A DNA stretch of 64,000 nucleotides from Echinicola rosea. GTDB lineage: Bacteria; Bacteroidota; Bacteroidia; Cytophagales; Cyclobacteriaceae. This document shows positions 48,239 to 53,781 of the stretch, one piece after another. Location: NCBI RefSeq assembly GCF_005281475.1, contig NZ_CP040106.1, forward strand, positions 1,617,501-1,681,500, in the 5' to 3' direction. Within the stretch, counting starts at the first letter, position 1; every line of letters starts with the position of its first letter. A program made the position numbers and the translations under genes. Below the pieces are notes generated by a model that worked only from the letters and a program-made list of their open reading frames with translations, was not told where the DNA came from and made no database searches.

Positions 48239-51178
48239 ATGAAAGTTTCTCCGGACAAGTCTTTTGAAATTATATATTCTCTTTTTAGTCATGAATATTT
48301 AGGGATTCTTTTTGAATCTTTCGTAATACAACATGATGAGAAAGGTAGGCTCTCGTTTGCCTATCAAAATATTGCTACCCAAAATGCCAAGGAGTTTGCT
48401 TCAGGTTTGGATAACACAGATTATGAGCTTATCGAGCTGATGGACAGCATGCAGCATGCCGCGATCGTCAAGAAATTTAACACCAAAAAGCTGAAACCAA
48501 AGGAGTTTCTCAGAAAAGTCTATGAGACGAATAGTGAGACTACTGCCAATAAGGAAATTCGTAGGCTGATAGAGATCAGGCTGGAAGGAATCCGGGCGAA
48601 GATATTGGAACGGATAATAGGGAAGCGGCTTTTTGAAATGGGAAATGATGGCAATCCGATATGGAAGGAGATCCATGTGATGGAAGAAAAAGCTTCCGTG
48701 CTGTTTCATTTTAGGAGAAACGAGGATAATACGCATTATTTCCCCACTATTAAACATGATGGTGAAAAATTGGATTGGCAATACAAGGGGGGCTACCTCC
48801 TCTGTGAGGAGCCTGCTTGGCTGGTGGTAAACGGAAATTTATACAATTTCGAAAAGGGTGTGGACGGTAAAAAGCTAAAGCCTTTTTTGAACAAGAAATT
48901 TATTGTCATCCCGAAAAATGTAGAGCAGTCCTATTATCAGAAATTCATCACACAGCTGGTGGCTTCTTTCGATGTATATGCCAAAGGCTTTGACATTAAG
49001 GTACAGCGTAGCCAACCGGAGGCACTGTTGAGTTTGAGCGATTTGCCTGGCGGTAACGGTAGTACGGATCTTTTTGGAAATGCCCAAGAGGCTGCTGAAG
49101 AAGACAAAATTGTATTTGACCTGCGTTTTCAGTATGGGGAGTACTCTTTTCGTTCGGAAGAGAAAAAATCCAATAACGTACAGCTGGAACAAAACGGGGA
49201 TAACTATATTTTCCACAAAGTCATCCGGGACCTGGAAAAGGAGCAGTCCTACGGGGATTATCTGAAAGGCCTAGGACTGCCCGTCCGTACATCCCGTTTT
49301 TCGATTGGCAAATCAAAGGCCTTCGACTGGCTAAATTCCAATAGGGAAGCACTGGAGGACATGGGCGTGAGAATCCTTCAAAACCAAAGTTCAAAGGGCA
49401 AAAAATATTTTATTGGTAATGCATCCATTAAGGTCGATATCAAAGAAAATATTGATTGGTTTGACGTGGATGCGATCATTAATTTTGGGCCTTATGACGT
49501 GCCTTTTGCCCAGATCAGGAAGTTGTTGGTGAAGGGAAAGTCAGAATTTGAATTGCCCAATGGGGAGATAGCTGTTATTCCCGATAGTTGGTTTGTGAAT
49601 TACTCGGAGATTTTTTCCTTCCTCGAAGCAGGAGAGCAAAAGGATGAAATGATGATGCTCAAAAAGCACCATATTGCCCTTGCCCAAGAACTTCAAAAAG
49701 GGAATCTCATTAACCTTACCTTAAGCAGAAAACTTGAAAAACTGAAAGGCTTTTCTGAAATGGAGTCCTATGAGCTTCCAGATACCTTCAGGGGAACTTT
49801 GCGTCCATACCAGAAAGCAGGCTATGACTGGTTGAGGTTTTTAAATGAATACAACTTTGGGGGCTGCTTGGCCGATGACATGGGGCTTGGTAAAACCGTC
49901 CAAACATTGGCGATGTTGGCCTACGAAAAGAAAAGGACCGAGGGAGCGACCTCGCTGTTGGTCATGCCCACTTCACTAATCTATAACTGGGAAGTGGAGG
50001 CGCGTAAGTTTACGCCTGACCTGAAAGTATTGGTATATACCGGATCCCAGCGGATCAAAGACAGCAGTAGGTTTTCCAATTATGATTTGGTCTTAACCTC
50101 TTACGGGATCACGAGACTCGATGTGGACATTTTGAAGGATTTTTTCTTTAATTATATTATTCTTGACGAATCCCAAGCTATAAAAAATCCAAACAGTATT
50201 ATATCCAAAGCGGTGAATCAGCTGGTGTGCAAGCATCGACTTATCCTTACGGGTACTCCGGTCGAAAACGGCACCATGGACCTTTGGTCCCAGATGAATT
50301 TTATTAATCAAGGTCTTTTGGGTACTCAGAGTATTTTCAAAAAGCAATTTTTACAGCCAATAGAAAAGAAAAATGACATGGATAAGGCTGCAAAGCTGCA
50401 TGCCATGATCAAGCCATTCATCCTGAGAAGACTTAAAACTCAAGTGGCTACCGATCTTCCTGAAAAAGTGGTCAATGTCAAATACTCCAATATGACGGCT
50501 GAGCAAGAGAAAGCCTATGAGGAGGTAAAGAGCTATTACCGCGAGAAGATCGTCAAAGAGATGAGCATCCCGGGCATGAACCGGCAGGCATTTACCTTAC
50601 TGAGAGGCTTGACGCAGCTTAGACAGATCGCAAATCACCCGCGGCTGACCGATACCTCGTACACCGGAGATTCAGGTAAAATGGAGGATATTGTGCACAT
50701 GCTGGATTCTACTGCCAGAGAGGGGCATAAGGTGTTGGTATTTAGTCAGTTTGTGAAACACTTGGCCATCGTGAAGGAGCACTTGGACGAAAGTGGAATT
50801 GCTTATTCTTACTTGGATGGGACTACCAAGGACCGTCAAGCAGAGGTCAGGGAATTTCAGGAGAATGATAAGGTGAAAATTTTCTTAATTTCCCTAAAAG
50901 CAGGTGGGGTTGGTCTCAACCTGACCAAGGCCGAATACGTGTTCTTGCTGGATCCATGGTGGAATCCAGCGGTGGAAGCCCAAGCCATCGATAGGGCACA
51001 CCGTATAGGGCAGGAAAATAAGGTGATGATTTACAAGTTTATTACGCACAATACTGTTGAGGAGAAGATCATGGCCCTACAAGAGCGGAAAATGGCCCTT
51101 GCCGATGAGCTGATCAGTACGGAGGAAAGCTTTATGAAGAGCCTCGAAAAAGAAGATATTGAGGCATTGCTGGCATAG
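48239..51178 (+). CDS. SNF2-family DEAD/DEAH-box helicase-like ATPase
   Basis: Predicted 979-residue DNA translocase. The C-terminal ~470 residues hold the SNF2 core: Walker A in LADDMGLGKTVQTLAML (near residue 545), VMPTSLIYNWEVEARKF, the DEAH-like DESQAIKN (near 642), ILTGTPVENGTMDLWSQMNF, then the helicase C domain with FSQFVKHLAIVKEHL, FLISLKAGGVGLNLT and QAIDRAHRIGQENKV. The N-terminal half (about 1-500) is large and unrecognised, with no SWIM zinc motif seen. Bacterial proteins of this class act in transcription or DNA repair; the precise role is unknown. The gene is followed by a long gene-poor region with the group II intron. Confidence 0.93.
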   Translation: MKVSPDKSFEIIYSLFSHEYLGILFESFVIQHDEKGRLSFAYQNIATQNAKEFASGLDNTDYELIELMDSMQHAAIVKKFNTKKLKPKEFLRKVYETNSETTANKEIRRLIEIRLEGIRAKILERIIGKRLFEMGNDGNPIWKEIHVMEEKASVLFHFRRNEDNTHYFPTIKHDGEKLDWQYKGGYLLCEEPAWLVVNGNLYNFEKGVDGKKLKPFLNKKFIVIPKNVEQSYYQKFITQLVASFDVYAKGFDIKVQRSQPEALLSLSDLPGGNGSTDLFGNAQEAAEEDKIVFDLRFQYGEYSFRSEEKKSNNVQLEQNGDNYIFHKVIRDLEKEQSYGDYLKGLGLPVRTSRFSIGKSKAFDWLNSNREALEDMGVRILQNQSSKGKKYFIGNASIKVDIKENIDWFDVDAIINFGPYDVPFAQIRKLLVKGKSEFELPNGEIAVIPDSWFVNYSEIFSFLEAGEQKDEMMMLKKHHIALAQELQKGNLINLTLSRKLEKLKGFSEMESYELPDTFRGTLRPYQKAGYDWLRFLNEYNFGGCLADDMGLGKTVQTLAMLAYEKKRTEGATSLLVMPTSLIYNWEVEARKFTPDLKVLVYTGSQRIKDSSRFSNYDLVLTSYGITRLDVDILKDFFFNYIILDESQAIKNPNSIISKAVNQLVCKHRLILTGTPVENGTMDLWSQMNFINQGLLGTQSIFKKQFLQPIEKKNDMDKAAKLHAMIKPFILRRLKTQVATDLPEKVVNVKYSNMTAEQEKAYEEVKSYYREKIVKEMSIPGMNRQAFTLLRGLTQLRQIANHPRLTDTSYTGDSGKMEDIVHMLDSTAREGHKVLVFSQFVKHLAIVKEHLDESGIAYSYLDGTTKDRQAEVREFQENDKVKIFLISLKAGGVGLNLTKAEYVFLLDPWWNPAVEAQAIDRAHRIGQENKVMIYKFITHNTVEEKIMALQERKMALADELISTEESFMKSLEKEDIEALLA

Positions 51179-51399: not shown

Positions 51400-51954
51400 C
51401 AATGTCGCTTAGTTAAGGCCATTTCCCTGTTTTTACCTGCTAGGAGTTTCTTTTCTATTTGACTTTGGCTGTATGGCTTTGGCCATTTTGGTGGATTTTA
51501 TCCTTTTCCTTTTTTCCATTGATGAAAAAAGAAAGAAAAAAATCCAGGCCGGTGGTCTGCCTTTTAAAATGGAACATGGATTTACCCTGCGACCGAGATC
51601 CGTTCCCCATTTTAATTTCCAGCCGATGGCTACGACCTAAAAGCGAGTGGGTCTCGCTGTTCCACGACGCGAGCCAACTCACTTTCTTAACGGCCTCCAC
51701 CATCGGCTGGAAAACAGGCATACCAAGGGCCGTCAAAAGGAAGCGATACATTTTTGGGACTTATTAACTGAATTCGCCTTGCAGGTATTGGGCGTTAAGA
51801 AATTAAAAAGCGGGTAGGCAAGAAGGCAGGCTTGTTTGACGAAATACTAGCCAAAAAGAATGTTGGCAGCTAAAGAAGGTTTACCTGGCTTTAGACAGGA
51901 GGAGTTTACCTGTATGGGGGGTAGGCTTTATTTTAGCCCAATAGCTGCACACCT

Positions 51955-52586
51955 GTGCGCCGTGGCGTAGCGGCAAGGTTTTTTGGTTACTTTGTGTGTC
52001 CTGAAGTTCGGGAAACCGGACATGCTATCCAACTGATGTCGAATAGGGCGTTACAACCCTTGGCACGACGGCTGGGACTGGATCAGGCAGACCAGTCAAA
52101 TTCCCCTGATGGTGCTGCGCTTTCAAGGCTGTGGTACTGAGCGATCAGAAGGGATGCGTTTCGAAAAGCTGAACGAAAGTGAACCGTTCGATGAAGTGTC
52201 GTGAAAAATACTTCCTGTCAAAACCGGGGGCTAGAGTAACTTCCGGGACAAAATAGGCAGCGCAGACTGAGAGTTGGCCTATTGGCAGGCGGCATTAAGG
52301 CGGCAGGAGTTCGAAACAGGCGGTTGGATGGAACAGGAGAACCATCCCCTTTGATAGGGATGGGGCGGATCAGTCCGTAGTAGTGTTGAAAGCTCTGGAA
52401 ACGGAGAAAGAGCGAAGGGACTGAGGCAATCAGTTTTAAATGGTTACACAACCTAAAATTAGGGAAGATGGAGTTGTTTGAAACAAAATCTGGAACATCA
52501 GATTTGATTGCCAAGAGCCGTATGACGGGAGACTGTCACGTACGGTTCTGAGAGAGGCTTGGGCATAGGGCCCAGGCCTACTCGAC
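51955..52586 (+). ncRNA. ORF-less group II intron
   Basis: A 632-base element with group II features. The 5' end is GTGCGCC, fitting GUGYG. Domain V is exactly 34 bases at 52515-52548 (GAGCCGTA pairs with TACGGTTC, then GACGG-GAGA-CTGTC with a GNRA-type loop, and the AGC catalytic triad). Domain VI (52556-52586) pairs GGCTTGGGC with GCCCAGGCC and then has the branch-point A in CCTACTCGAC, seven bases from the end. No maturase gene is inside or nearby, so splicing or mobility would need a protein in trans. Exact ends are inferred. Confidence 0.8.
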
Positions 52587-52926
52587 TTTGACCTGAAGCA
52601 AAAAAGTAACAAAGGTAAAGAGGTGAAGACCATCTTGGAATTTAGCAGAAAAATAATAGAACCAATATTTCCAAATTCACACTAACTAAACGACATTGAT
52701 AAAACGGGTTAAACGTTCCCAATGTGTAGTTGGGAACGTGTATAAACGGACCAGAATTTTAGTAATGGTTGCACTCAAAAACACTGGCCCTTAGATGAAT
52801 AAAGGCCAAAGAAATGAAATAGCCATATTTTCCCGCCACAAAAGTAAAATGTTTCCCTTTACTGGATATCTTAGTGGTGGGAAACGTATTACCCACTAAA
52901 TAGCAATCATAAATTTTTATCGTTTT

Positions 52927-53781
52927 ATGGAATCCGCAATATTAATCATCCAGTGTAAGGATCAGAAAGGCATCGTCGCTGCTGTGACGCAGTTTTTATA
53001 TTTTCATAATGGCAATGTACAAGAAGTAGATCAGTACATTGACAGTGAGACAGGGGACTTTTTCATGCGTGCCAAATGGGAACTAGCGCGCTTTGCCATT
53101 CAGAAAGACCATATCCATCGGGTGTTTTCAGAGACGGTCGGAGATAAGTTTGAGATGAACTTTACGCTACACTTTAATGAGCCCAAGCCCAGAATGGCCA
53201 TATTCGTGTCGAAGCTATCCCACTGTTTATTTGATATCGTGTCGAGGTATTATTCTGGCCAGTTTGATGTGGAAATTCCGCTGGTCATTTCTAATCACGA
53301 AACTTTAAAACCTGTGGTAGAGGCATTTGATATCCCGTTTTATCATTTGCCCATTAATAAGGAAAACAAACTGGAACAAGAGGACAAACAGCTACAATTA
53401 CTTAAAGAGCACAATGTCGATTTTATTGTCTTGGCGAGGTATATGCAGATTTTGAGCCCCCGATTTATTGCAGCGTACCCTCACAATATCATTAATATCC
53501 ATCATTCTTTTTTGCCTGCTTTTGTCGGAGCCAAGCCGTACCATGCTGCACATAAAAGAGGGGTGAAGATAATTGGCGCGACGGGGCACTATGTGACCGA
53601 AGAACTGGATGCAGGTCCGATTATCGAACAAGATATCGCCAGGGTCAAGCATCATAACACCATCGAAGAACTGGTGCAGATAGGCCAAGATGTCGAAAAA
53701 GTAGTGCTCTCCAAGGCCATCAAATATCATTTGACTAAAAAAGTAATGGTCATGGGGAATAAAACGGTCATATTCAACTGA
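52927..53781 (+). CDS. purU: Formyltetrahydrofolate deformylase
   Basis: This 284-residue enzyme hydrolyses 10-formyl-THF to formate and THF, balancing one-carbon units. The N-terminal ACT domain (residues 4-80, QCKDQKGIVAAVTQFLY) precedes the formyltransferase-like domain with FVSKLSHCLFDIVSRYYSG, VLARYMQILSPRF, INIHHSFLPAFVGAKPYHAA (catalytic Asn/His area), and GATGHYVTEELDAGPIIEQD. Length is standard. Next to the intron region; convergent with the META lipoprotein gene. Confidence 0.96.
   Translation: MESAILIIQCKDQKGIVAAVTQFLYFHNGNVQEVDQYIDSETGDFFMRAKWELARFAIQKDHIHRVFSETVGDKFEMNFTLHFNEPKPRMAIFVSKLSHCLFDIVSRYYSGQFDVEIPLVISNHETLKPVVEAFDIPFYHLPINKENKLEQEDKQLQLLKEHNVDFIVLARYMQILSPRFIAAYPHNIINIHHSFLPAFVGAKPYHAAHKRGVKIIGATGHYVTEELDAGPIIEQDIARVKHHNTIEELVQIGQDVEKVVLSKAIKYHLTKKVMVMGNKTVIFN

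Follow-up and report, generated by a model that had tools for sequence, protein, structure and literature searches.

The window, by which we mean the whole 64-kb stretch of DNA that was analysed, contains an element that we interpret as one copy of a mobile, non-autonomous group II intron lineage, which would spread through RNA-guided retrohoming at replication forks, helped by a trans-acting maturase. We assign this reading a probability of roughly 0.78. The boundaries, the copies and their distribution are observed in genome sequences, and from them we infer splicing, present mobility, priming at the fork and the identity of the driving enzyme.

In the proposed mechanism, the intron RNA would be transcribed and then spliced with a maturase supplied in trans. 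To find its targets, the RNA particle would base-pair EBS1 (AGAGTAAC) with IBS1 (GTTACTTT), which lies in a palindrome’s left arm, and it would reverse-splice into the strand that serves as lagging-strand template at the fork. Because the likely helper enzyme seems to lack an endonuclease domain, a nascent strand would then prime reverse transcription. The spliced exon junction would join GGTTACTTT to TTTGACCTGAAG.

Boundaries and anatomy of the intron

RF00029 is the one Rfam family that matches the window at its gathering threshold (40 bits), with a score of 64.4 bits and an E-value of 2.4e-10 at 52513-52586 on the plus strand. Comparison of sequences supports the assignment of the element at 51994-52586 as an ORF-less group II intron that would need a protein from elsewhere (Table 1). 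An earlier note on this DNA had claimed domains V and VI, a branch-point A in domain VI and the absence of an encoded reverse transcriptase (RT) or maturase, all within a gene-poor gap, and had proposed the Rfam search as a check. These claims are borne out. Domain V is present with its 34 nt, including the catalytic triad region and the bulge, and the fold places the bulged A, the presumed branch point, at 52580, the seventh base counting from the 3′ end of the intron. No ORF of at least 100 aa lies within the intron, the longest being one of 98 aa on the minus strand, and a tblastn search with the genome’s three RTs found no RT remnant in it (best E-value 0.29). The gap extends from the end of a 979-aa ORF (helicase-like by eye) at 51178 to the next long ORF, which begins at 52927.

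The 5′ end had been misplaced. The earlier note put it at a GTGCG at 51955, which lies in the 5′ exon, in a variable stretch that is absent from 4 of the 17 intron-bearing copies; the true 5′ end is the GTGTG at 51994, 39 bases downstream. Near-identity among the 17 copies starts abruptly at GTGTGTCCTGAAG (51994) and stops at CTACTCGAC (52586). Group II introns have the consensus ends GUGYG at the 5′ side and AY at the 3′ side, and the ends of the window intron, GUGUG...AC (GTGTG...CGAC), which were placed by empty sites, fit this consensus. The window intron is 593 nt long, and the 17 copies range from 593 to 595 nt.

Table 1. Positions of the intron, its parts and the surrounding host repeat (window coordinates, except for the scarred repeats in the last row).
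Feature	Position	Strand	Basis
ORF-less group II intron, GTGTGTCCTGAAG...CCTACTCGAC, 593 nt	51994..52586	+	17 full-length copies, aligned empty sites
IBS1, GTTACTTT, final 8 nt of 5′ exon	51986..51993	+	pairs 8/8 with intron nt 240
EBS1, AGAGTAAC, loop of helix 14, domain I model	52233..52240	+	covariation with IBS1
Possible EBS2, TGAAAAA, hairpin loop, weak	52202..52208	+	could pair with TTTTTTG (by eye)
Domain IV, about 88 nt, no ORF	52425..52512	+	helices 21-24 also form in ORF-less G284 homolog
Domain V, 34-nt core, GAGA loop, CG bulge	52514..52549	+	RF00029; fold
Domain VI, bulged A at 52580 (presumed branch point)	52552..52586	+	RF00029; fold
Left arm of host palindrome (GGTTACTTT), 5′ of insertion	51985..51993	+	intron-free copies continue straight from arm
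Remaining host palindrome, 3′ side (TTTG, loop ACCTGAAG, CAAAAAAGTAAC)	52587..52610	+	copies, empty sites
Host intergenic repeat, approximate, limits soft	51775..52699	+	pairwise matches; consensus
Scarred intron-free repeats L039, L048, L053	G000 802786, 488478, 3587210		alignment

The surroundings of the intron (51400-52900) are a mosaic-like intergenic region of dispersed repeats. Parts of it recur near other copies, both in the genome containing the window (G000) and in a congener (G009).

Structure and target recognition

Three further checks that the earlier note had proposed were productive. Domains I-IV could be assigned a structure, the genome encodes three group II-type RTs, and other ORF-less copies exist, 17 full-length copies having been found; the multicopy, repeat-targeted nature of the family had escaped that note. 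The minimum free energy (MFE) of the intron is −225.5 kcal/mol (z −7.3), and none of 100 shuffles was as stable.

The fold could be compared with a homolog in G284, a genome from another genus of the same family. This homolog is also ORF-less, is 77% identical to the window intron over nt 64-593 and is alignable across all of its 599 nt. It is the sole long relative outside G000 among 390 family genomes, for each of which two candidates were scored. When the MFE structure of the window intron was placed on the alignment of the two introns, 94.9% of cells were paired, and 28 pairs had changed on both sides, as against 13.8 in shuffles and 0-5 when the structure was slid. It is important to consider that this test uses two sequences and a structure derived from one of them, so the slid control favours the structure; the excess of double-changed pairs over shuffles is independent of that origin. 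As aligned, G284 does not preserve helix 2, which is near the 5′ end. In domain IV, helices 21-24 form a short ORF-less stem in both introns, with helices 21 and 24 changed on both sides, and this shared stem suggests that the ORF was already absent in the common ancestor of the two. The G284 intron, too, is located at, or within, a palindrome’s left arm.

IBS1 (GTTACTTT) pairs in 8 of 8 positions, one of them a G-U, with exactly one place in the intron. This place, AGAGTAAC at nt 240, is part of a domain I hairpin loop. It is the position of this pairing that counts: among 5000 random 8-mers from the window, 1096 could pair fully somewhere in the intron, and none could do so with the nt-240 loop. 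The G284 homolog has AACGAAAC in the corresponding loop and GTTTCGTT at the end of its 5′ exon, and two further places in that intron also pair with the exon end. RT-coding introns of this genome and of two Algoriphagus relatives have nt-248 loops reading ATATGTGT, ATATGTGT and TTATGTGT, with the respective exon ends ACACATAT, ATACATAT and ACACATAA. A fourth RT-coding intron (L114) has an EBS1 candidate at nt 250, and none was found in two others (L118 and L121). Four more (L116, L117, L119 and L120) were not delimited by the pattern used and hence lie outside this comparison.

Variation within the genome follows the same rule. EBS1 reads AGAGTGAC in 3 of the 17 introns, all of which are located at IBS1 GTCACTTT. 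The other 14 introns have AGAGTAAC, and 12 of these are found at GTTACTTT, one at GTCACTTT and one at GCCACTTT. The association between EBS1 variant and IBS1 variant is significant (Fisher p 0.015), and pairing is full in 15/17 copies, the remaining two having one or two mismatches. IBS1 is altered by 1-2 changes at five of the 17 sites, with EBS1 uncompensated in two of the five. As far as sequences can tell, EBS1 covaries with IBS1 both between and within species.

We had at first taken EBS1 to be AAAGTGA, in a hairpin with a GAACG/CGTTC stem. This candidate was rejected because its loop is nearly the same in G284 (GAGAGTGA) despite a different 5′ exon; it is the nt-240 loop that covaries instead. 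For EBS2 and IBS2 there is a weak candidate only: judged by eye, TGAAAAA might pair with the TTTTTTG that immediately precedes IBS1, and comparison gave this possible EBS2 no support. Alongside the 8-nt EBS1-IBS1 pairing, a GC-rich inverted repeat and a T-run precede the insertion site (by eye). Group IIC introns depend on a 5′-side terminator hairpin for site recognition and use little IBS pairing.

These observations bear on whether the element might be a degenerate group II fragment without function, as its lack of an ORF could be taken to indicate. We consider this highly improbable. It is already contradicted by the covariation across genera; in addition, all domains fold, EBS1 tracks IBS1 and the copies are recent.

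Copies, host repeat and replication strand

A whole-genome search, in which all 29 first-look candidates were scored, yielded the 17 full-length copies. To judge from their identity of 98-100%, and from a domain V that is identical in 17/17, the spread of these copies is recent. Every copy lies at the same position and in the same orientation within an intergenic palindromic repeat. RF00029 matches at least 21 places in the genome, four of them being other introns or fragments (150 of 338 candidates scored).

The palindromic core of the host repeat (ACTTTTTTGACCTGAAGCAAAAAAGT) occurs at 141 places in G000 with at most three mismatches, and a reversed-pattern control gave 0. The repeat is about 350 bp long and intergenic; pairwise matches most commonly start 200-280 bp ahead of the core and run for 80-120 bp beyond it, and many pairs fade sooner. 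With the intron always in the same repeat, and the repeat itself dispersed over so many places, it might be supposed that a repeat with the intron inside was amplified by transposition or segmental duplication, the intron being a passenger. This is very unlikely, given that the introns differ from each other by a mean pairwise distance of 1.0% and their flanks (60+70 bp) by 10.9%, with the intron more similar than the flanks in 136/136 pairs. Moreover, intron distances show no correlation with flank distances (Mantel r −0.05, p 0.62), so the insertions look independent, and most intron-bearing copies are oriented, relative to replication, opposite to the intron-free ones. Ribozyme constraint lowers the divergence of the intron somewhat. 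The simplest reading of these sequence distances would be independent insertion of the intron into already diverged repeats.

Intron-free repeats were also aligned, using the 24 best matches to the window flanks. Twenty-one have no intron sequence (one soon diverging), and the other three carry a scar, in which the first 13 intron bases run into the 3′ exon at a CCTGAAG common to the two. The scars probably reflect loss of the intron by recombination, as a deletion between short direct repeats. One of them, at 488478 on the plus strand, falls in a repeat copy of the orientation that introns disfavour (see below). A truncated copy at 4303194 (L081, 1501-1540) has the exact 3′ junction and retains domain VI only, in front of which lies an inverted copy of that domain. 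It is possibly an aborted reverse-transcription product, and other rearrangements could also yield it. Two other loci, at 3954102 (L080) and 4877909 (L082) of G000, have short stretches that are 78-80% identical to parts of domain I, with the rest of the intron absent.

Beyond this genome, no full-length copy was found in the 10 congeners searched, four of which have short matches, mostly to domain V. Some match is present in 66 of the 390 family genomes, this genome included, with two candidates scored in each. In a plasmid collection, 254 records match and none of them covers 80% of the intron; among the 20 matches listed of these 254, only the domain V/VI end is involved.

To relate the insertions to replication, we inferred replication direction and a putative origin from GC skew, coding bias and a cluster of parS-like sites. 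The G-rich strand was taken as the leading one. In G000, all samples but one between 1.3 and 3.9 Mb have positive GC skew. The skew is negative in the arc that starts at 3.95 Mb and passes 0 to reach 0.65 Mb, and the zone 0.66-1.30 Mb has mixed values or values close to zero. Coding bias agrees with the skew in 16/17 12-kb samples outside the zero-skew zone. Three sites resembling the parS consensus cluster at 1.207 Mb, and four single matches are scattered elsewhere, in about 1.24 Mb of sampled sequence. Two other origin markers were tried and rejected: parB lies at 2.70 Mb, giving the inferred origin zone no support, and the orientation of 16S rRNA could not be used because RF00177 had 0 matches in G000, though it was found in 9/14 control genomes. 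The dnaA gene is at 0 Mb, so neither it nor parB is at the inferred origin.

On this basis, the intron sense strand has the leading sense in 15 of 17 cases, and hence the strand carrying the IBS is the inferred lagging-strand template; the other two insertions have the opposite orientation. For comparison we used 96 empty cores with at most one mismatch, taken from 100 listed of the 141, the four listed with two mismatches being excluded. Most of these are polarised opposite to the introns (66-84/96 depending on replichore boundaries), leaving 12-30/96 in the orientation that introns favour (odds ratio 16-52). The number in the favoured orientation is 14 with boundaries at 1.30/3.85 Mb, 12 at 1.30/3.64, 27 at 0.82/3.85, 30 at 0.66/3.85 and 19 when local skew is used. 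Filled and empty cores differ in orientation with Fisher p 1e-5 to 1e-9 over four boundary choices. Seen from the side of the repeat, with boundaries at 1.30/3.85 Mb, 15/29 sites in the favoured orientation are filled, versus 2/84 in the other.

The repeat is also polarised in the congener G009, which has no full-length intron. There, 76 of 77 core places (at most two mismatches) are on the plus strand before 2.9 Mb or on the minus strand after it (binomial p 1e-21 for a boundary set by eye). GC skew in 20 samples of this genome is mostly negative before and positive after the boundary, and is weak or contrary at 0, 2.83 and 2.95 Mb. The rarer orientation is thus taken by 1/77 copies in G009, versus the above-mentioned fraction of empty copies in G000. 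Four other congeners have 3-11 core places.

A second form of the repeat, subfamily B, has the core TACGTTTTTCACCTGAAGGAAAAAAGT with an altered IBS1. We counted 25 places, of which 24 match exactly and one has a single mismatch; another place with one mismatch was assigned to the main family. None of the 17 intron insertions is in this subfamily, and it has no polarity (13-15/25 depending on boundaries). At 1.30/3.85 Mb its orientations divide 14 to 11, versus 14 to 82 in the main family (p 5e-5). A Y1 transposase was considered as mover of the repeat, and this candidate found no support: for nine Y1_Tnp matches there was no significant repeat match within 1.5 kb (best E-value 0.44). Our literature search found no paper on polarised intergenic repeats. 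The polarity of this repeat (76/77 in G009) could deserve its own study.

The strand bias could instead be the outcome of selection, e.g., on transcription through the repeat or on harm to genes, rather than of insertion coupled to forks. In favour of this, most introns follow a gene of the same sense (12 of the 15 filled sites, out of 17, for which an upstream ORF was found). The empty repeats, though, are similar in context, with 14/20 downstream of a same-sense ORF (9 sites from G000 and 11 from G009), yet mostly have the opposite polarity, and 0/17 intron-bearing sites are inside an ORF of at least 450 bp. In this small sample, gene context does not clearly separate filled from empty sites. 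We regard selection as an unlikely source of the bias.

Returning to fork-coupled retrohoming, a more far-reaching version of it can be put forward, to which we would give somewhat less than an even chance. The introns might constitute an old bacterial lineage resembling the SINE/LINE relationship, which lost its enzyme before the divergence of the genera, parasitises the maturases of distinct introns, retargets itself via changes in EBS1 and is largely confined to the rarer-orientation copies of a polarised repeat. The proposed age is based on what the G284 homolog shares with the window intron, namely the missing ORF, the domain IV stem and the location at or in a palindrome’s left arm. The proposed retargeting is based on the two EBS1 variants matched to two repeat variants in one genome. 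In any case, 17 filled and about 100 empty near-identical targets of known orientation amount to a natural experiment on the spread of a non-autonomous ribozyme. It also covers retargeting and fork dependence, and is relevant to the question of how a reliance on trans-acting factors can arise in introns.

Related systems and the candidate helper

Both ORF-less introns driven in trans and introns in palindromic repeats are known. What is distinctive here is the combination of a palindromic intergenic target, the matching of EBS1 and target variants, a strong strand bias and the lack of a close ORF-bearing sibling in the genomes searched. The nearest precedent for trans-driven multicopy introns is TeI3 of Thermosynechococcus elongatus. 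As described in PMC2882425, its ORF-less forms arose from an ORF-bearing intron, ORF remnants are recognisable, and all 28 introns are 85-100% identical. In contrast, the window family has a palindromic intergenic target, and neither a close ORF-bearing sibling nor a remnant was found for it.

Other systems resemble the window family in their targets. RmInt1 of Sinorhizobium meliloti, whose maturase has no endonuclease domain, is reported to prefer the lagging-strand template, and its target, too, is in a repeated element (RmInt1/RmInt2 literature: PMC8914252, PMC5894124). However, this repeated element is an insertion sequence, and RmInt1 carries the gene for its maturase, whereas the window intron encodes none. 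Group IIC introns, which insert at terminators and attC sites, are described as having a target near an inverted repeat and a maturase without endonuclease (PMC4424553), but the window intron has the 8-nt EBS1-IBS1 pairing and its cut is inside the left arm of the palindrome. REP elements, which are extragenic palindromes, host insertion sequences and some group II introns according to PMC1525189, where a group II intron entry in Pseudomonas putida KT2440 is given as 2/9; for the window family, 17/17 full-length copies are in the repeat.

A 2015 review states that ORF-less group II introns are rare in bacteria and nearly always occur beside related introns in the same genome, whose proteins may act in trans (PMC4424553). 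The window family fits this pattern, and it may have outlived its own enzyme across genera. The literature on ORF-less group II introns and Bacteroidetes includes PMC3552965; our search found no paper on group II introns that names Cyclobacteriaceae, Echinicola or Algoriphagus.

All three PF00078 matches that represent the genome’s RTs exceed the NCBIfam cut-off for a group II maturase. The best candidate for driving the ORF-less family in trans would be a 426-aa RT/maturase at 5.83 Mb (TIGR04416, 385 bits), which is 92% identical to Algoriphagus proteins and for which Pfam reports RVT_1 and GIIM only, and no endonuclease domain. It is encoded in an intron of 1874 nt, which in the domain V stretch shares 84% identity with the window intron. 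This intron has a different EBS1 target, and its DNA similarity to the window intron is patchy outside domain V.

The state of this enzyme’s intron matters for a different interpretation of the family, in which the introns are relics that spread in the past with a cognate maturase, since lost, and are immobile today. No closely related ORF-bearing version was found in G000 or among two scored candidates from each of the 390 family genomes, and the scars in 3/24 intron-free copies suggest loss by recombination. Yet the near-identity of the copies, including the invariant domain V, indicates that the spread was recent, and the related RT-coding intron is present with an ORF and ends that look intact. 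On balance, we consider it rather unlikely that the family is immobile, though this is the alternative that we take most seriously.

Regarding the genome’s other RTs, no RF00029 match from the 150 candidates scored lies within about 6 kb of the RT that has a 322-aa ORF. At about 5.18 Mb (L057, 709-4705), a 568-aa group II maturase ORF lies between two ORFs that resemble parts of an IS66-type transposase by eye, and a second, shorter maturase ORF is located about 4.6 kb from it.
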